Source of the DNA: Segatella paludivivens DSM 17968 = JCM 13650
Lineage (GTDB): Bacteria > Bacteroidota > Bacteroidia > Bacteroidales > Bacteroidaceae
Direction of reading: 5' to 3'
Length of the DNA stretch: 64,000 nt
Assembly: GCF_000373185.1 (NCBI RefSeq)
Contig: NZ_KB890649.1
Coordinates: forward strand, 1 to 64,000
The notes under the pieces were generated by a model that did no database searches, was not told the DNA's origin, and was given only the letters and a program-made list of their open reading frames with translations. This document shows positions 55,711-64,000 of this stretch, in pieces; positions within the stretch are counted from its first letter, which is position 1, and each line of letters starts with the position of its first letter. The position numbers were made by a program, and so were the translations under genes.

Positions 55711-55756
55711 TTTAAATCACAATTTTTAGGTATTGCAAATCACTTGATTTTGTAGT

Positions 55757-55764
55757 TAACTTTG
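55757..55764 (+). promoter_or_regulatory. -7 box of the porin-like gene
   Basis: TAACTTTG at 55757-55764 with a partial TTG 21 bases upstream (55733-55735); the ATG follows at 55789. Confidence 0.65.
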
Positions 55765-55788
55765 CAGCTGTAAAGAATTTAATAATTT

Positions 55789-56793
55789 ATGGCACATGTA
55801 AGGTTAGTATTGTTTGTATTTTTTTTGTATTGTGATAATAAGGTTTTTGCTCAAAATGATTCATTGCATCCTGTTGTTTTTACTGGTGTAGCAAATATGG
55901 AAGTTCGTTTTGGTCCAAATTGTATGGGTAATGAACAGGCATCCTTGAGTTGCCCACATATCATAATAGGTGGTAGGTTAAGTCTTTTAAATGGATGGTC
56001 TTTTACATCTGAATTTGAGTATGAACATTTGTATGATAATCATGCATGGAGTCATAATTTAAATAACGAATTTTGCACTAATGCGCTATATGTTATTAAA
56101 AGTTTTACAGATGCCTTAAATGTAAAGGCTGGTATAGTTGACATTCCTGTAGGTATGACAAATAGTAGAGGACCTGCACTTACGATAGATGATCCAGAGA
56201 GTGAAGCAGATATGCTTCCAATGGTGTGGCATGAATCAGGTATATCTTTATTTGGTGAGTATAAAAGGTTGGCATATTCTGTAACAGCGACTTCTTATCT
56301 TAATAAATTTGAGGTGCTGGGATTAGCCGCTCGAGCAGATTATCGTGTTGCTGAATCTTTAAGATTGGGCTTTAGTGGGTATACCGGAAAGAGGTGTCAT
56401 GGAATGATAGGTAGAGAAACCTCAAAACAATATTCATGTGCATCATTGAATTATCTTTCACTTGATATGAATTATTCTGTTAATGGTTTTTTATTAGACG
56501 GTTCAATGATATATTGCAGCGAAGGTAACGGTAACTCTTTTGGGTGTGAATGTGGATATGACCTCATGTTTAATAGTGATGATTCTAAATTCCGTTCTCA
56601 AATAATTTCTTTCTTACGTTATGACTATGTATGTAGTAAGCTTTTGAATAACACAAAAAAATATACGATAGGAATGAATATAGTTCCGATTCCAAATCTA
56701 ATATTCAAGGCAGAGTATGGTATCCGTGATTATGATTGTTTAGAAACTAGTACTCAATTTGCTTTAAGTCTAGGGTATACCGTCAGCTTCTGA
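55789..56793 (+). CDS. Porin-like outer membrane beta-barrel protein
   Basis: This 334-residue protein has a signal peptide (VRLVLFVFFLYCDNKVFAQN) and then alternating-strand sequence: IIIGGRLSLLNGWSFTSEFE, NVKAGIVDIPVGMTNSRGPA, LRLGFSGYTGKRCHG, and a C-terminal strand ending LSLGYTVSF with terminal Phe. The end KYTIGMNIVPIPNLIFKAEY is closely similar in outline to the barrel at 63446-64000 (G-x-N-x-x-P-I-P-x4-KAEY), so the two are paralogues. Unusually Cys-rich for a barrel (about ten Cys). It is convergent with the imelysin cluster. The transported molecule is unknown. Confidence 0.75.
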   Translation: MAHVRLVLFVFFLYCDNKVFAQNDSLHPVVFTGVANMEVRFGPNCMGNEQASLSCPHIIIGGRLSLLNGWSFTSEFEYEHLYDNHAWSHNLNNEFCTNALYVIKSFTDALNVKAGIVDIPVGMTNSRGPALTIDDPESEADMLPMVWHESGISLFGEYKRLAYSVTATSYLNKFEVLGLAARADYRVAESLRLGFSGYTGKRCHGMIGRETSKQYSCASLNYLSLDMNYSVNGFLLDGSMIYCSEGNGNSFGCECGYDLMFNSDDSKFRSQIISFLRYDYVCSKLLNNTKKYTIGMNIVPIPNLIFKAEYGIRDYDCLETSTQFALSLGYTVSF

Positions 56794-56909: not shown

Positions 56910-58064
56910 TTAAAATGTCTTGAATTGTTTGTTTACAAAATCTTTAACGCCAATACATTCCATTTCGATTAACCAACCAGGTCTGCATACAGATGCATGG
57001 ACAATTATGCATGGAATGTTTTTAAATTTATGGTTGAACATCTTTTTAACTGTTGCGAAATCTGCGATATCACGTAAATATGCAATCATTACACCTATAT
57101 CTGTAAAGCCCATATCAGCTTCTTGTAATAAGGCTTCTACATTTTCAAGCATGCGTAGAGTCTGTTGTTGTATATTTCCTACATGTAGTATATTACCTTT
57201 GTTATCAATGCTTGCTGTTCCAGAGATATAAATATGTCGTCTGTCTCCATAGTCAATATATGTACCTCGTTCAAAGCTTACACCATATTCGCTTGTGGGG
57301 TTCATATGATTTGGTGCATAAACGTATTTCATTTGACCTTGCTTTAATCCGTTTATAGAATATGCGTCCATTTGGACTAATATTTTATGATTTGATTGCC
57401 GTCCACCAATCCCTGTACTTGATATGTAATGCGAATGGGGTGTCAGATTTTGAGTCATGAAAATGTCATTACGAGCTTTTACTACTCCATTATAATTATT
57501 ATCAATATCATTTATAAAGAACCAAGTCCTTACGCAATTATCAGCAAGAGTACATCCTGTTTCAATAAGTTTCATTACGTAATTTTGAAGTATAATGCGT
57601 GTTTGATATTCTGAATTGAATTCTAGTTTGTTGTAATTCCCTAACCAGAGATGTGTATACGTATTGTGTTCAACTCTATATAATCCATTTTGTAAAACAC
57701 GCGTCTTAACTCCTGTTATCATATAAGTCCAGAGTGCTACTTTGCTTCCATCAATAGGTGGTTGCTGAATTACAGAAATAGCACAGTCACTAGTTTCCAT
57801 GTTGAATACATCGTTTTCTTGATTTGCGGAATCACTGAGAAAGTATCTCTTAAAAACGGCAACTGCATTGCCTGAAATATTAATTCTAACTTCATTGTAT
57901 GTGTTAATCAATGTTTCAAGTTGTTGTTTGAAATTTAGTTCAGTATTTGTTACATGAACCATAATATGATATTCTCTAGCTTCCGTGTTGTTTGCAAAGC
58001 AGAATACTTCTGCATACGCATCTTTTAGTTTTACTGTTTCTTTGAATGATTTTTCTTGTAGCAT
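56910..58064 (-). CDS. Rid-family protein with long N-terminal domain (chorismatase-like)
   Basis: This 384-residue cytoplasmic protein has an N-terminal part (about 1-190) that is not clearly assigned. The C-terminal half is of the YjgF/Rid type: NNYNGVVKARNDIFMTQNLT, YISSTGIGGRQSNHKILVQM, HIYISGTASIDNKGNILHVG and AYLRDIADFATVKKMFNHKF. The N-x-x-Y, ARNDIF and TGIGG features resemble the FkbO/Hyg5/XanB2 chorismate-cleaving group, whose fold is also Rid-like. Either an imine deaminase or a chorismatase is thinkable. It is the last gene of the imelysin/CcsBA cluster, 33 bases after ccsBA. Confidence 0.6.
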   Translation of the reverse strand: MLQEKSFKETVKLKDAYAEVFCFANNTEAREYHIMVHVTNTELNFKQQLETLINTYNEVRINISGNAVAVFKRYFLSDSANQENDVFNMETSDCAISVIQQPPIDGSKVALWTYMITGVKTRVLQNGLYRVEHNTYTHLWLGNYNKLEFNSEYQTRIILQNYVMKLIETGCTLADNCVRTWFFINDIDNNYNGVVKARNDIFMTQNLTPHSHYISSTGIGGRQSNHKILVQMDAYSINGLKQGQMKYVYAPNHMNPTSEYGVSFERGTYIDYGDRRHIYISGTASIDNKGNILHVGNIQQQTLRMLENVEALLQEADMGFTDIGVMIAYLRDIADFATVKKMFNHKFKNIPCIIVHASVCRPGWLIEMECIGVKDFVNKQFKTF

Positions 58065-58097
58065 ATTGTTGTTGTTTATTTATTAATAAAGTTACGT

Positions 58098-60347
58098 TTA
58101 GGCATAAGAGTGCATACCTCCTAAAAAATAGTTTACTCCGAAATACGTCATGAGTATCATTGCAAATGCAACCGTAGTGTATATATGATAAGATAATGGA
58201 CTATTGAATACAGGTAATGATTTTTTGTGTAATACAATTGCATAAAACATAAATGTAATCAAAGCCCATACTTCTTTTGGATCCCAACTCCAATATTGTC
58301 CCCACGAAATATTAGCCCAAATTGCACCCACGAAGATTCCTATTCCCAATGTAGACATTGCAGGATATAATAATATTTTTGATAGTAAGTATAATGATGA
58401 TAGTTGATTATCAATTATAGTCTTTTCATCATGCTTTATTCTATGTGTAACATATAATATCAACGCTGTCAACCCGCATATAAATGTAAGTGACAGAAGA
58501 GCGAATGACATCATAATTATTGATACGTGGATGCTTAATAATGGTGATGACAATACAGGCATGATGGGAGTAATCTGAGGATCCATTTGTCCTATATGTG
58601 ATACAAGAAGAAAGAAGCCAGACATAAGGAATCCGAAAGTTATAAGAATTTTAAATCTATGATAAAAAATTAGTGAGAACAGCATAACAAACCAAGCCAA
58701 TAATAGCATCGTTTCGTATCCATTTGCCATAGGTATATTTTTACTAATTATCCATCTTAATATTTCACAATATGTTAATGCTATAAACGATAAAAGCATT
58801 ATTATAATAGATGTGTAAGATATTATTTTATTAGTTGTATGTCTGTTGTTTTTTATACTTGTCAATCTGTATATATAATAGAATAGAGTTATAAATCCCA
58901 TTGTAATATTGATCATAAATAGGATATTGGCAAATGGAATTCTATTATAAGTAAGTTCCGCTATAACCTGTGTTACTGAGGGTAATGTATTTCCTCCGTT
59001 TTGTTCTTGATATATCCTTATTTTAGCAATCAACGAGTTGAATTGATTATAGTCTCCTGAATGTGCAGACTGATTTAATAATGTGAATATATTTTTGACA
59101 AACATAGACTTGTCTGTATCCATACTCTTCGGAACTTGCGCTTTAGGACTATACCATATAATATTATTCCCTTTGCCGTAAGGGAATATTTTAAATGGTT
59201 CTCCATGTCGTAACGACATTATCAGTTGCACCTTATCATCAATTTCAACTACAGCTTTATGCAGTTTGTCATGATTACCTTGATAGTATTCCTGAACAGC
59301 CGGTCCGAGTATGTAACCACCTAAATTCTTATTGAAAAGTTGATTGATTGAAATGTATTTTGGTAATCCAAAATACTTTCTAAGCGTATTGTCTTTTATT
59401 TTAATAATTGGTTCATTCTTCCATTCATCATTCCAAAATATAAATCCTGTCAAGACTTGCTCTGCTGAATAGTCATTATACGATGAGCTTCCATAAAGTT
59501 TTTCAGTAAAATCTATTGCAAATGTCTGAATCGGACATATCCTATTGTTGTACATAATGTCTAGTTTGCCAAATTTATTAGCAGTGATATCAGGTAGCGT
59601 TGATGTGGCTTGTGTAACAGAAGAAAATCCGCCTAGAAACACAATGCACAACATGCCTTTTTTAAGCAAAGGAGATTTAAGCAGTTTTCGATAAGAACCA
59701 TTTGGATCTATTAGTAGCCATATTAACGAAAAGAAAAGTAATGCATAGCCTGTATATGAAATAGCTATTCCGTAAGGATCAGAGTTTATAGTGAGATACG
59801 TTCCGTTTCCATCATCGTCGTATGAAGTTTGGTATAACCTTACGAAATTATATGTAAAAATGTTGTTAATAGAAATATATCCATCTTTACTTTGTTTGTC
59901 ATTCGTAATAGTGATATACGAAATATAATCTTTGGGTGCTGATGTGCCATTATTATATATAATATTAAAATTGTTTAGACGTATGTTGAATGGCAGAGTT
60001 TTTATTTCTTTGCCATTGTTCACTATATATTGATTTGTCGTTATCCCCTTTCTTATATGGACAAGCCCTTTAATTGCAAACAAATGTGTGATGAGTGCAC
60101 CTGTCAATATCACGATAAATGAAGTATGTAGTAGCAATAGTGTTACAGAATGCATGCGCATCTTTATTATATATGTTATTGTGCCTATGGCTAATGCAGC
60201 CCAAAGCACACAAAACCACCATGAACCGTAAATATGTGTTGAGACAAATTGTGTACCTTTTGAATATTCAATGAATGTAGCTAGAGCCATGACGATGATG
60301 ATAGTAACATATAATGTAGTGATAGATCTTTTAATTTTTTGCCTCAT
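58098..60347 (-). CDS. Fused cytochrome c maturation protein CcsBA (System II)
   Basis: This 749-residue membrane protein is placed at ATG 60347 (MRQKIKRSITTLYVTIIIVM). The N-terminal CcsB/ResB-like half has helices at about 10-30 and 55-100 and a large periplasmic domain. The C-terminal CcsA half has several helices and the haem-handling WWD motif: ANISWGQYWSWDPKEVWALI (Trp-rich, WxWD). It exports haem and attaches it to CxxCH proteins. It directly follows the gene for a two-CxxCH lipoprotein, so it probably matures that partner. Full length for the fused type. Confidence 0.88.
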   Translation of the reverse strand: MRQKIKRSITTLYVTIIIVMALATFIEYSKGTQFVSTHIYGSWWFCVLWAALAIGTITYIIKMRMHSVTLLLLHTSFIVILTGALITHLFAIKGLVHIRKGITTNQYIVNNGKEIKTLPFNIRLNNFNIIYNNGTSAPKDYISYITITNDKQSKDGYISINNIFTYNFVRLYQTSYDDDGNGTYLTINSDPYGIAISYTGYALLFFSLIWLLIDPNGSYRKLLKSPLLKKGMLCIVFLGGFSSVTQATSTLPDITANKFGKLDIMYNNRICPIQTFAIDFTEKLYGSSSYNDYSAEQVLTGFIFWNDEWKNEPIIKIKDNTLRKYFGLPKYISINQLFNKNLGGYILGPAVQEYYQGNHDKLHKAVVEIDDKVQLIMSLRHGEPFKIFPYGKGNNIIWYSPKAQVPKSMDTDKSMFVKNIFTLLNQSAHSGDYNQFNSLIAKIRIYQEQNGGNTLPSVTQVIAELTYNRIPFANILFMINITMGFITLFYYIYRLTSIKNNRHTTNKIISYTSIIIMLLSFIALTYCEILRWIISKNIPMANGYETMLLLAWFVMLFSLIFYHRFKILITFGFLMSGFFLLVSHIGQMDPQITPIMPVLSSPLLSIHVSIIMMSFALLSLTFICGLTALILYVTHRIKHDEKTIIDNQLSSLYLLSKILLYPAMSTLGIGIFVGAIWANISWGQYWSWDPKEVWALITFMFYAIVLHKKSLPVFNSPLSYHIYTTVAFAMILMTYFGVNYFLGGMHSYA

Positions 60348-60361
60348 TTTGTTTGTATTTA

Positions 60362-60390
60362 AGCCCGCCAATATATATTGACGGGCCTTA
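60362..60390 (-). promoter_or_regulatory. Hairpin between di-heme and ccsBA genes
   Basis: The minus strand forms GCCCGTCAATATATATTGGCGGGC (in pieces: GCCCG-TCAATA and TATTGGCGGGC), a stable stem between the stop at 60404 and the ATG at 60347. No T-run follows, so it may lower rather than stop readthrough, or protect the upstream message end. Confidence 0.5.
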
Positions 60391-60403
60391 TAGTTAATTT
60401 TGA

Positions 60404-62113
60404 TTATATTGCATTTATGAAACTCACAACGGCATCTCTGTCATCTTTGGGTAGATTATAGAATTTTTGTGAAGCTCTGTATGCATCACTGTTCTTACTG
60501 TATCCATGCCACATAATCGCTTCAACTACGTTCCTGGCTCTACAATCGTGCAGCCTGTCATGAGCACCAGTTTCCTGATAGCTAAGTCCTCTTCCCCATA
60601 AAGGAGTTGTTCGACACCAGCCAGAGCGTATGTCATTTTCCATGTGTAATCTGTGTTGAACCATGTCTGTATATGGCCATATCTTCTGATGTGCATATCT
60701 TGGTAACGGTCCTTGATTCCTAACAATGTAGTCTTTCCAATATTCGTCATTACCAGTAGTCCATGATGGACGGTGGCAAGCAGTGCATCCCATAGAATAA
60801 AATAGAGTTTTGCCTCTTTTTACTTTATCTGTATTCAGACCACGTGCTTTTGGTACAGCTAGTCCTCTATGCCATACCATAAAGTCATAATAGTCTTGGT
60901 CACTCATTTCCTCGCCTTTACTATCGTTGTTAACAAAGTATTTTTCGTAGGTCTGTGAGTCAGATTTAGAGTTTAGTCCTAGTAATAGGTTTACTAGATA
61001 ACTCACGCTATCCTTGCTTCCGTCTGCATAATACGGATGTAGAAGAGATGTTTTTGTAGCACCTTTATCTTGAATATACTTTATGACATTTGGATTTTCA
61101 GACATTGCTTTTGCCCATGCTTTTGTTGTGTATAGATAATGTCTGTCACTGCGTGTCACGTTTGTTATATTCCACATGGCATTAGCTCCAGGTCCATCCT
61201 GTAATGATCCACGTGTCAAAGCATACGTGAACTTTTTAATACGTTTGTCTCCATCCGCAAGTGTATACCATGCATTAGAAGCCCACGTCTTTGATGCAGC
61301 GTCCCACATTGTTGGATTTAATGTAACGTAAGGTGATTCGTGAGCATACTGCATTTGCAGCGAATCATCAGGAATTGCATCTAGAAGTGCTGTTCCATAA
61401 ATGCCTATAGTTGATTCGAGACGAACTTCATAGTTGTCTGGCTTAGGATCAGTGTTAAATGCAGATTGAGGAATAGTCACATCTGGATATATGAGATCAT
61501 AACTTTCACCGTCTGGAAATTTATTATTGTGTTCGTCGGTAGCTTTCTTCCATTTTATACTAATCTGACTTTCGTCGATAGGAGCGAGGAATGGGTCCAT
61601 CGCTTTTGTCTGAGGCATACCTGTAACCTCCGAAATATAACTGTTTGCTGCATACGCATTACCGTTAATATCTGTTCCTGCTGTAAGATGATACACAACA
61701 AGTAGATATCCATTTCCCATATCATTAGCTTGATAACGTTCCATTCGTTTACCATGACCGTATGATGGATGACAATACATGCAGCTGGATCTTACCCATG
61801 CTGGTCCTAAGCCACGACGTGGCTGCGTGTTCAGTGTAAAGTCGTTCTCGAAAAATGTTTCTCCCTTTTTAAACGTTTGATACATTCCGTTGTTTTCTAC
61901 ATACGGAGACGGATTGGAATAACATCCCTCTTCATTTGATGTTGTTCCAAGTTCTCCGCCTGGATTCCATTCTGCAGCCGTAAACACATTGTTTGCTGAA
62001 TCTACACCTGCGTTTGGATTGACAATATCAGCAGTGTCATTGTCAGTGCATGAGAATATAGCTACTGTTGACAGTCCTAAGAATAAAGTTTTGCTGATTT
62101 TTGATAATTTCAT
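60404..62113 (-). CDS. Di-heme c-type cytochrome lipoprotein (DUF1111/di-heme oxidoreductase-like)
   Basis: This 569-residue lipoprotein is placed at ATG 62113 (MKLSKISKTLFLGLSTVAIF) with lipobox Cys22 (IFSCTDND). Two haem-attachment sites are seen: WVRSSCMYCHPSYGHGKRME (near residue 110) and SMGCTACHRPSWTTGND (near residue 441). GRGLSYQETGAHDRLHDCRA and EAIMWHGYS near the end are like the DUF1111 (putative peroxidase/oxidoreductase) family. It would sit in the outer or periplasmic leaflet and transfer electrons. It follows imelysin and precedes ccsBA, its likely maturation factor. Confidence 0.88.
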   Translation of the reverse strand: MKLSKISKTLFLGLSTVAIFSCTDNDTADIVNPNAGVDSANNVFTAAEWNPGGELGTTSNEEGCYSNPSPYVENNGMYQTFKKGETFFENDFTLNTQPRRGLGPAWVRSSCMYCHPSYGHGKRMERYQANDMGNGYLLVVYHLTAGTDINGNAYAANSYISEVTGMPQTKAMDPFLAPIDESQISIKWKKATDEHNNKFPDGESYDLIYPDVTIPQSAFNTDPKPDNYEVRLESTIGIYGTALLDAIPDDSLQMQYAHESPYVTLNPTMWDAASKTWASNAWYTLADGDKRIKKFTYALTRGSLQDGPGANAMWNITNVTRSDRHYLYTTKAWAKAMSENPNVIKYIQDKGATKTSLLHPYYADGSKDSVSYLVNLLLGLNSKSDSQTYEKYFVNNDSKGEEMSDQDYYDFMVWHRGLAVPKARGLNTDKVKRGKTLFYSMGCTACHRPSWTTGNDEYWKDYIVRNQGPLPRYAHQKIWPYTDMVQHRLHMENDIRSGWCRTTPLWGRGLSYQETGAHDRLHDCRARNVVEAIMWHGYSKNSDAYRASQKFYNLPKDDRDAVVSFINAI

Positions 62114-62134
62114 AATGTGGGTATTTAATAGTTT

Positions 62135-62170
62135 AAAGGAGAATGCCATATTAAATGGCAAACTCCTTTT
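62135..62170 (-). promoter_or_regulatory. Interrupted perfect hairpin between imelysin and di-heme genes
   Basis: AAAGGAG-AA-TGCCAT (62135-62149) pairs with ATGGCA-AA-CTCCTTT (62155-62169), with two symmetric AA bulges. It lies in the leader of the di-heme gene and ends 21 bases before its ATG, without a T-run. It may act as an attenuator or as an RNA-processing site that balances the two products. Confidence 0.55.
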
Positions 62171-62195
62171 CTAAATATAAAATAATTATGATGGG

Positions 62196-63404
62196 TTATT
62201 TATTTGTTTTCTGTACAAACTGGTCTGCCGCACTTAATGCATCGCTAAGTTCCTGACATGCAGAAATAGCTTTAGCACATTGTGCATTCTTATAATTATT
62301 TACGAATGGTGCAGGGATTGCTTTTATTTGTGCCAATGCATTCGTTATGGCTGTTTCAACACGCTTACCAGTTTCTGCGTCATATTTAGCAAAATAATCA
62401 TGGAATGATTTTCCGTTGCTGCGATTATTTGCAGTTCCACCATACCAAATGTTTTCAATACTGTGTATGTTGTTTTGGAAATCAATAAGTGAATGTTGAC
62501 TATATGGTGATTCAATGTAGCTAACGTCAGCACCAGAGTATGGGTTGTTAATCTTCGTGTTACCCACTTCATCTGCAATTCCTGCTGCTCCATGATCACC
62601 GCTAAGAATAGCACTTACTGCTGCTTTGACAGATGTATATGTACTACCTGTGTTTCCTGCATTCTGTAGGTCATATCCGTATGACTTTTCAAGGTCAGTT
62701 GTGTATGCCTTTCCAAGATTGTCTAGTTTGTCGAAATGACTTTTTGATGCGTTTTCGTTCCAAGAGCATTCCAATTGATAAACACTGTTGCGTAAGTCTT
62801 CTGACACAGCAGTTGCAAATTCAATCTCTCGGCTACCACTTACTGTGGTGAAATCCATTCCGTCTTGATTGTATGTATCTTTACTGTTTAGCTCTTGTGC
62901 ATTTCTGCTTTTTCCGTCACGGAATAATATAAACTCGATTCCATGAAAGCCGATAAGACTTTGATCGTAATTGCTTGCAGTTGCAATGCTGTTATTACTT
63001 GTTAGCAACTTTTGTAAAGAAGCAAGGTCCAGCGGCCATGAGTCAATATGTGGATCAATGCTGAAGTGTGAAGCTGCACCAAGTAAGAAAGCCTCGCTGC
63101 GTTCATAATTGCTTCGTGCATTTAGAAATATCTTGCATGCGGCATCTACTTGTGTCTGAGTAATGTTGCCTGTTTTCATTGCAGCCAGTGCCTCGTAAAG
63201 TTGAGAACAACTATCAGCAAGAGCCTTGTATGTAGGATTAATTGTGTTGTTCACGTCTGCGGCTATAGCTTGTTGCAGCAGTTGGTCTCCTTCACTTAAT
63301 GTGGTAGATGATGTTTTGTTATCATCATCAGAACAAGATGACATTCCGAGTGTAAATACAGAACTTAGTAGTAATGCTATTGAATAGCTTGCTAATTTTT
63401 TCAT
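62196..63404 (-). CDS. Imelysin-family lipoprotein (IrpA/EfeO-like)
   Basis: This 402-residue outer-membrane or periplasmic lipoprotein has lipobox Cys24 (LGMSSCSDDDNK). The conserved GxHxxE signature is IGFHGIEFILFRDGK (near residues 149-163). Other segments are YERSEAFLLGAASHFSIDPH, SWPLDLASLQKLLTSNNS and the C-terminal DAETGKRVETAITNALAQIK. Imelysin-like proteins (IrpA, EfeO M75 domains, ICMP) act in iron uptake, and the peptidase activity is doubtful in most. It lies between a porin-like barrel gene upstream and the di-heme lipoprotein gene. Confidence 0.9.
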   Translation of the reverse strand: MKKLASYSIALLLSSVFTLGMSSCSDDDNKTSSTTLSEGDQLLQQAIAADVNNTINPTYKALADSCSQLYEALAAMKTGNITQTQVDAACKIFLNARSNYERSEAFLLGAASHFSIDPHIDSWPLDLASLQKLLTSNNSIATASNYDQSLIGFHGIEFILFRDGKSRNAQELNSKDTYNQDGMDFTTVSGSREIEFATAVSEDLRNSVYQLECSWNENASKSHFDKLDNLGKAYTTDLEKSYGYDLQNAGNTGSTYTSVKAAVSAILSGDHGAAGIADEVGNTKINNPYSGADVSYIESPYSQHSLIDFQNNIHSIENIWYGGTANNRSNGKSFHDYFAKYDAETGKRVETAITNALAQIKAIPAPFVNNYKNAQCAKAISACQELSDALSAADQFVQKTNK

Positions 63405-63445
63405 TTTCTTTGTTTTAAATTATTATAATTGATTATATATATTCT

Positions 63446-64000
63446 TTATAGGAAGAAACCTTCGTATGCTATTCCGATAGAAATAGAAGGTTCGTCGTTA
63501 TATCCGCTTTTCAGGAATCTTTTTGAGTACTCTGCTTTTAAAGCAATTTGTGGAATAGGGTAGTAGTTGACTCCAAAGGCCATACGATTCTTTTTTGTAT
63601 ATGGATAAGCAGGTTCTTCTGATGTAGGTATATATGAGTTGTAATATTCATAATGTCCGAATACATAGAATTTTTGTTTATCTTGTCTTAGTTTTTGAAT
63701 CTGTGAAAACACATCCCATCCAGCCTCAATGCCAGTAGCGATTGCAGCTTTGCCTACATAATCTCGATTGAATGGAGATGTTTTGGTCTGTCTTCCGGTA
63801 AGCAGTCTCACGTCGTTAGCATCGCCCAGATGTCCGTAGTCAAAGTTTCCTCTCACAATCCAGTTGTGGGCATTGTATGTAAAATCAAATGTACCTATTG
63901 TCACCGCTCCTTTTAGGTTTCTTGAACTAGCCTCTTTACTTGCTTCGCGACCTAGCGAGTTATCAATGCTATGACCGTAATATCCGCTTACGCCAAGTCT
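63446..64000 (-). CDS. Porin-like outer membrane barrel protein (N-terminus outside window)
   Basis: The reading frame is open to the right edge (185 codons visible); the GTG at 63904 is internal, not the start. The C-terminal barrel strands include FDFTYNAHNWIVRGNFDYGH, AAIATGIEAGWDVFSQIQKL, KFYVFGHYEYYNSYI and RMAFGVNYYPIPQIALKAEY, ending SISIGIAYEGFFL. The last strands match the barrel protein at 55789-56793. It is 41 bases upstream of the imelysin gene, so it is the first visible member of that operon and could be the outer membrane pore for iron or haem uptake. Confidence 0.75.
   Translation of the reverse strand, partial: RLGVSGYYGHSIDNSLGREASKEASSRNLKGAVTIGTFDFTYNAHNWIVRGNFDYGHLGDANDVRLLTGRQTKTSPFNRDYVGKAAIATGIEAGWDVFSQIQKLRQDKQKFYVFGHYEYYNSYIPTSEEPAYPYTKKNRMAFGVNYYPIPQIALKAEYSKRFLKSGYNDEPSISIGIAYEGFFL

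Follow-up and report, generated by a model that had tools for sequence, protein, structure and literature searches.

What could an outer-membrane barrel, an imelysin, a di-haem lipoprotein, a cytochrome c synthase and a chorismatase-like protein do together in one operon? The question is raised by the last ~7 kb of a 64-kb stretch of DNA from Segatella paludivivens DSM 17968 (contig NZ_KB890649.1, positions 1 to 64,000; hereafter the window), whose source genome comprises 3.46 Mb in 61 contigs. Five genes follow each other there on the minus strand: POR (the barrel), IMEL (the imelysin lipoprotein), DHOR (the DUF1111-type di-haem lipoprotein), CcsBA and a gene for a 384-aa Rid-type/chorismatase-like protein. 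An initial annotation of the window had described this set as lying on one strand with short gaps, and all five open reading frames (ORFs) were found as described, spaced by 32–41 bases. Knowledge of the mechanisms that regulate the adaptation of Bacteroidetes to iron is still scarce (PMC10434189; here and below, papers are cited from excerpts). We put the probability that the operon is an iron-starvation unit moving iron through the outer envelope at about 0.6, and its best reading is as a variant of the published imelysin/DUF1111 systems.

The link to iron, which the initial annotation had proposed, is supported by a Bacteroides locus and by a promoter box. In B. thetaiotaomicron, the similarly ordered genes BT2473–BT2482, which include a porin, a thiol oxidoreductase, a peptidase M75 and CcsA, are up 63–324-fold in low iron (PMC10434189), and by analogy this locus is likely the counterpart of the operon. 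The box stands ahead of the barrel gene and is common to flavodoxin, FeoAB and TonB receptor genes. Among 98 barrel upstream regions, the 94 of full length were tested with the pattern [AG][AG]GTATTG, 14–22 bases, TAnnTTTG, which was found ahead of POR in 39, compared with 9 of 1026 control upstreams; upstreams put through a simple two-base block shuffle average 0.02 matches per 94. TAnnTTTG is the Bacteroidetes −7 element. The nine control matches are themselves mostly ahead of iron-type or system genes, namely the second barrel gene POR2 (three), a DUF4153 gene (two), flavodoxin-like genes (two), a methyltransferase-like gene (one) and CcsBA (one).

Within the source genome, GTATTG-N19-21-TAnnTTTGC gives 12 matches and the reversed pattern none. 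These boxes precede genes for flavodoxin, the adjoining enolase, a methyltransferase, four receptor-like proteins (two of them confirmed as TonB plug proteins), POR2, POR, the DUF4153 protein and a membrane protein, with one box lacking a called gene. The strict form, AGGTATTG-N19-21-TAnnTTTGC, yielded 114 matches in 36 genomes of the genus versus 1 in the control, and 11 versus 0 in 24 other genomes. Neighbours of the box were read at one locus apiece for 30 of the 42 matching genomes: the box is followed by a TonB receptor in seven, flavodoxin in four, the barrel operon in four (one by place), a methyltransferase in three (plus one by resemblance), DUF2023 in two, and FeoAB and the regulator HEM in one each, that is, an iron-starvation class or the barrel operon in 22 of 30, or 23 with the one by resemblance. 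Of the other seven, one is a lipid kinase, one has a heavy-metal-associated domain and five have no class (L217 and L226 without a Pfam match, L218 and L228 without a gene within 700 bases, and L224 with just a doubtful ORF). In P. intermedia, the genes listed as rising in low iron include flavodoxin with DUF2023, a methyltransferase and TonB-dependent genes (PMC10434189). On this sequence evidence, the AGGTATTG box is a candidate iron-starvation promoter box.

The regulator that may control the box is HEM, a hemerythrin protein with a LuxR helix-turn-helix (HTH) domain, whose N-terminal part resembles the iron-sulfur repair protein RIC. HEM is no more than six genes away in 26 of the 74 loci with enough flank, and HEM or LuxR genes lie inside the operon in L099 and L129. 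At a threshold of E 1e-30, HEM is matched in 43 of 60 sampled genomes, with a single match in all but one of the 43; in 16 of the 27 genomes that carry DHOR, the two genes are no more than 12 kb apart. Boxes average 3.6 in the 31 genus genomes with the regulator and number 0, 1, 1, 0 and 1 in the five without it, a comparison confounded by completeness; G053 has the fused regulator type yet no strict box. The same hemerythrin and LuxR HTH make-up is described for the iron-regulated CdhR/hemerythrin pair of P. gingivalis, which is fused in P. intermedia (PMC10434189). Unlike in the setting described for CdhR, HEM adjoins the DHOR operon, and its likeness to CdhR is by domain make-up alone. Nothing on a hemerythrin-LuxR protein in Bacteroides was met in the literature searched.

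Between the box and the start codon of POR lies a leader of ~220 nt, which in the source genome folds at −53.1 kcal/mol (z −5.9); nine leaders of at least 100 nt range in z from −5.9 to −0.9. Among four related leaders, 10 of 35 pairs are changed on both sides yet still paired, whereas shuffles average 3.7 with 1 of 500 as high and sliding controls are far lower, most of the changes stemming from one sequence, L063. A model of these four leaders matches, in the same place, a Hoylesella shahii leader (L079:7026-7227) at E 2.7e-4 over 36 sources. L076 is matched at E 0.037, but an antisense match scores about as well (E 0.039), and we therefore count five leaders. A known RNA family was also sought in the leader, with no Rfam match up to E 1.

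To place the operon among relatives, we compared 107 loci, made up of 26 from sampled relatives, 80 named loci and the window locus. DHOR was called in 105 and is non-redundant in 103; L081 and L091, where its ORF is uncalled, and the duplicates L070 and L086 were left out. The initial annotation had suggested a neighbourhood search for imelysin, DUF1111 and CcsBA, and the three do recur together: IMEL is directly upstream of DHOR in 93 of 94 testable loci (the exception is L125), a barrel is within three genes of DHOR in all 94, and in 89 of 97 CcsBA follows no more than four genes downstream, counts that are inflated by kinship among the genomes. The median intergenic gap in the compared loci is ~40 bases. 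The nearest DHOR among the named loci, at 95% identity, belongs to a Prevotella metagenome-assembled genome (L060). The Rid-type gene is the least constant member of the operon, called in 10 of 107 loci including one duplicate. An extra imelysin gene is placed between DHOR and CcsBA in L059 and L061.

The two lipoproteins fit their earlier description. DHOR, annotated as a lipoprotein with two CxxCH sites, scores above the curated PF06537 cut-off, with its best stretch C-terminal (residues 330–498 of 499), and two such motifs are present in 107 of the 108 ORFs called as DHOR, the remaining one being a fragment. IMEL carries, besides its family match, the GxHxxE motif of an iron-type imelysin, which is present in 102 of 103 called imelysins; a sequence search found its solved-structure relatives 3n8u and 4ecg. 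For DHOR, no solved relative was found by sequence at 1e-3, and a profile search gave unspecific matches only. We built a model of DHOR on a 58-sequence alignment (mean pLDDT 89.4). Foldseek returned weak matches, the top one a bacterial di-haem cytochrome c peroxidase (E 3.5e-4), and the forty best VIA-align entries, at Z 10.7–14.5, are all di-haem peroxidase, MauG, MbnH-like or hydrazine synthase chains. The predicted fold class, di-haem peroxidase/MauG, is clear. Reading the reaction of DHOR off its fold was rejected, as these four kinds of chain all score alike.

CcsBA was annotated as a complete System II maturase, and its ResB and CcsA parts, WWD residues and conserved histidines were all found: WWD, H615, H729 and H754 are retained in 60 of 60 selected CcsBA sequences and H82 in 55. 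It is a fused, divergent member, with a ResB match that spans just profile positions 150–272 of 486 and a score below the NCBIfam TIGR03144 equivalog cut-off (151.4 versus 187.6 bits). The suggestion that the maturase stands next to its likely client has gained weight, since the operon's CcsBA is the sole PF01578 match in the source genome and, as noted, follows DHOR in most loci; profile searches of that genome gave no match to the NrfA, CCP_MauG and Cytochrome_CBB3 families. That DHOR is the genome's only c-type cytochrome is suggested, but not proven, by searches with PF06537, PF02335, PF03150 and PF13442; a raw CxxCH scan gave 445 matches versus 177 in a reversed control.

The distribution of maturases, tallied by hand from profile-search listings, points the same way. 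Of the 27 sampled genomes with DHOR, 25 have the window type, and CcsBA is linked to DHOR in 21 of these (a contig end cuts CcsBA in G030). Thirteen of the 21 lack both a further PF01578 gene and any match to NrfA or CCP; in six, extra PF01578 genes adjoin NrfA, in G043 one adjoins a CCP gene, and G031 has one more, unassigned PF01578 gene. Separate maturases are plausible because the CcsA genes of B. thetaiotaomicron respond oppositely or differently to low iron: BT2475 (CcsA) is up 104-fold, a set with NrfAH, CcsA and ResB is down 30–36-fold, and the ResB/CcsA pair BT1604-5 is up just 2.3-fold (PMC10434189). CcsBA thus looks, from its sequence and distribution, like a private maturase of DHOR, and a possible reason for duplicated cytochrome maturases is that one tracks iron starvation and another nitrite reductase. 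At the G043 site (G043:C8:5838-7391), the CcsA gene is short and its neighbour belongs to the CCP/MauG family, another case of a maturase beside a likely client.

The last gene was annotated as Rid/chorismatase-like, and its likeness to chorismatases holds over the whole chain. Searching with a profile built from 27 members gave matches to Hyg5 (5ag3, E 4.3e-11, positions 175–370) and FkbO (4bps, E 1.2e-6), and also to many Rid proteins. In a model with a mean pLDDT of 93.7, chorismatases take Foldseek ranks 1–7, and alignment to a chorismatase gives Z 33.1 and rmsd 2.5 over 299 residues, with the next entries at Z 14.8 or less. Hyg5 has a catalytic Glu334, and a set of Gly, Gly and Cys marks the CH-II class of 3-hydroxybenzoate-forming chorismatases (PMC7170507). 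The catalytic Glu and the three marks correspond to E367, G218, G282 and C360, invariant in 27 of 27 members, as placed by hand on the profile alignment with Hyg5 numbering taken via an offset from a homologue's numbers. The protein has no evident signal peptide and is probably cytosolic, and by sequence and model it looks able to make a small aromatic acid. It is like Hyg5 and FkbO (5a3k, 5ag3, 4bps) in its whole fold, catalytic Glu and CH-II residues; it is 14–19% identical to them, its activity is predicted, and its gene sits in an iron-type operon whereas theirs sit in a polyketide cluster. A plain Rid deaminase was rejected on account of the chorismatase fold along the entire chain, and for the same reason the suggested role of the last gene in nitrogen detoxification is unsupported.

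Does this gene belong with the others? Across the 60 genomes, homologues of at least 360 bits occur in 13 of 27 genomes with DHOR versus 1 of 33 others (p 4e-5), and within the genus in 12 of 22 versus 1 of 14 (p 0.005), kinship being ignored in both comparisons. We fetched the context of 20 of 27 outside genomes with strong chorismatase homologues. DHOR lies within 4.3 kb of the chorismatase gene in 10 of these 20 loci of other families; the remaining ten comprise one with a POR-family barrel alone, eight without a nearby cluster gene and one (L183) without a called chorismatase ORF. A second cluster variant thereby appears in other Bacteroidales families, in the order barrel, imelysin, full-length DHOR, Porin_O_P barrel, one-haem lipoprotein and chorismatase, with CcsBA adjoining in several loci and exactly one CxxCH in 9 of 9 called one-haem lipoproteins. 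Loci of this variant with full-length DHOR are L170–L177 (except L172 and L174), L181, L184, L188 and L189, as well as L034 and L035, and the Porin_O_P barrel and one-haem lipoprotein are called in most of them. Other arrangements were also seen: a LuxR-type gene flanked by two chorismatase-like genes (L170:4058-7736); a chorismatase-like gene divergent from a hemerythrin-LuxR gene, with 255 bases between the matches, on a contig other than that of DHOR (G030:C140:31623-33937); and a second, lower-scoring chorismatase-like group (135–260 bits), off the DHOR contigs, in G009, G011, G019, G022, G028 and G034.

How, then, might the operon work? The barrel would admit iron or a weak iron chelate, and the imelysin lipoprotein would bind it. 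DHOR would carry out a redox change on the metal or its ligand, which would let the iron pass to a permease encoded elsewhere. CcsBA would attach the haems of DHOR and be kept for this client, and DHOR could therefore be made while other operons for c-type cytochromes are silent. From chorismate, the chorismatase-like enzyme probably makes a hydroxybenzoate that would serve the iron-starvation response, for instance as a ligand, a reductant or the co-substrate of a peroxidase. A fuller version, in which 3-hydroxybenzoate, made in the cytosol and used in the envelope, is a self-made aromatic helper of a DHOR–imelysin pair with a private maturase, HEM is an iron sensor and the switch at the AGGTATTG box, and the leader adds a second control, is possible but doubtful. 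Of the self-contained iron/redox unit first proposed, the iron link and the maturase beside its likely client are supported; "self-contained" is too strong, because there is no inner-membrane iron permease among the scanned cluster proteins and the regulator, the DUF4153 gene and the second barrel appear connected. A strongly conserved operon hereby gains a mechanism testable gene by gene, a candidate box together with its targets, and a partner that was not expected, the chorismatase; if that partnership is true, an aromatic metabolite is part of iron acquisition in common gut bacteria. The literature searched, mostly at the level of title listings, gave no prior account of the box, whose absence from print this does not establish, nor of the structured leader, the maturase partition or the link between a chorismatase and an iron operon.

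Several observations weigh against an iron-starvation unit of this make-up. CcsBA is absent within four genes of DHOR in 8 of 97 loci (L036, L041, L053, L074, L080, L106, L120 and L122), DHOR occurs without a linked intact CcsBA in G018, G032, G038 and G055, and a PF01578 gene lies within 5 kb of NrfA in just 13 of the 22 sampled genomes with an NrfA match. The chorismatase gene is missing from most compared loci, and it is on a different contig from DHOR in 7 of 13 DHOR genomes with a strong homologue. The likeness of BT2473–BT2482 is judged by annotation alone, and imelysin and thiol-peroxidase genes of Leptospira, which form an operon, rise with peroxide (PMC7567364). The Leptospira response, like the place of the DHOR model in the di-haem cytochrome c peroxidase/MauG class, would suit a peroxide defence in which DHOR is a periplasmic H2O2 reductase, imelysin sequesters loose iron from peroxide and iron control is secondary. 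We consider this unlikely, since the box is found with genes for iron acquisition and flavodoxin, the Bacteroides locus is named for low iron (PMC10434189) and the fold does not give the reaction.

DHOR might instead be a MauG/MbnH-like enzyme that builds a metal site by oxidising a residue in one of its neighbours, the imelysin or the barrel, and so would not act on iron itself. MbnH modifies its partner protein, and the near-constant adjacency of the DHOR and imelysin genes (93 of 94 loci) would fit such a pair, as would the second-ranked structural match, 6e1c (Z 13.3), a MauG-like protein with a link to copper homeostasis, and MauG entries at Z about 12. Cytochrome c peroxidases score alike, however, and no modified residue is predicted, which makes this quite improbable in our view. 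It is also conceivable that the end genes are there by coincidence, with CcsBA as the cell's general maturase and the Rid-type gene coding for an ordinary deaminase that is next in line by chance: the C-terminal third of the last protein matches Rid families, its strong homologues are often unlinked, and a few DHOR genomes lack a linked CcsBA. We think this very unlikely given that CcsBA follows DHOR in 89 of 97 loci, that a second CcsA adjoins NrfA in 6 of 21 and a CCP gene in 1 of 21 linked genomes, and that the entire last protein adopts the chorismatase fold. An iron-starvation unit remains the reading that we prefer.

Coordinates of the operon and associated features, given in the window unless marked as contig positions
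Feature	Position	Strand	Basis
Chorismatase-like 384-aa protein with Rid-type C-terminal domain	56910..58064	-	PF01042 66 bits, Hyg5/FkbO profile match, model Z 33
CcsBA, fused System II cytochrome c synthase	58098..60371	-	PF01578 112.6 bits, PF05140 69.4 bits
DHOR, DUF1111-type di-haem lipoprotein	60404..62161	-	PF06537 104.3 bits (cut-off 22); CxxCH at 127-131 and 459-463
DHOR haem motif 1, CMYCH, residues 127-131	61769..61783	-	Cys/His invariant in 58/58
DHOR haem motif 2, CTACH, residues 459-463	60773..60787	-	Cys/His invariant in 58/58
IMEL, imelysin (M75, IrpA-type) lipoprotein with GxHxxE	62196..63404	-	PF09375 158.3 bits
POR, outer-membrane barrel, first gene of the operon	63446..64000, on to contig 64762	-	Weak Porin_O_P match
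POR2, second barrel, convergent with the operon	55789..56793	+	25% identical to POR; carries the promoter box of POR
Promoter box AGGTATTG-N-TAACTTTGC ahead of POR2	55728..55765	+	Pattern match
HEM, hemerythrin + LuxR HTH protein, 318 aa	contig 67215-68168 (L003:4215-5168)	+	Profile matches
Leader RNA, ~220 nt, 5' of POR	contig 64763-64985 (L003:1763-1985)	-	Folding z -5.9

The whole ORF of POR (438 aa, contig 63446-64762) extends past the window edge, and its Porin_O_P score of 17.9 bits is under the cut-off of 20.9. DHOR and CcsBA are both listed with TTG starts that, as judged from the reading frames, probably lie too far upstream, with in-frame ATGs downstream. Upstream of POR lie the DUF4153 gene, HEM and genes for a LuxR-type protein and a phospholipase D-like protein.

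Finally, we compared the operon with known systems. By annotation, BT2473–BT2482 and the second cluster variant agree in their kinds of genes and in how these are ordered: a hypothetical gene (perhaps the first barrel), peptidase M75, thiol oxidoreductase, porin, a hypothetical gene and CcsA. As listed in the source excerpt, it also includes a fimbrillin and a helix-turn-helix regulator and no Rid/chorismatase gene; the window operon is without the extra porin and one-haem lipoprotein of this order. An imelysin has been noted in a Prevotella proteome with acetate or valerate, in the excerpt without gene context (PMC7709123). The operon resembles EfeUOB in that an imelysin domain is proposed to work together with a haem peroxidase; membership of that system was rejected, with no EfeU/Ftr1-type permease or DyP-type EfeB among the scanned cluster proteins, the rest of the genome not having been searched. 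The link between imelysin and DUF1111 and a role in iron have been described (PMC3143127), and P. aeruginosa PA4370–PA4373 has, as here, a GxHxxE imelysin beside a DUF1111 di-haem protein in a putative outer-membrane cluster without EfeU (PMC3143127). Unlike PA4370–PA4373, the operon described here has a barrel, a linked maturase and, in some genomes, a chorismatase-like gene, and a second imelysin is confined to some loci (L059 and L061).

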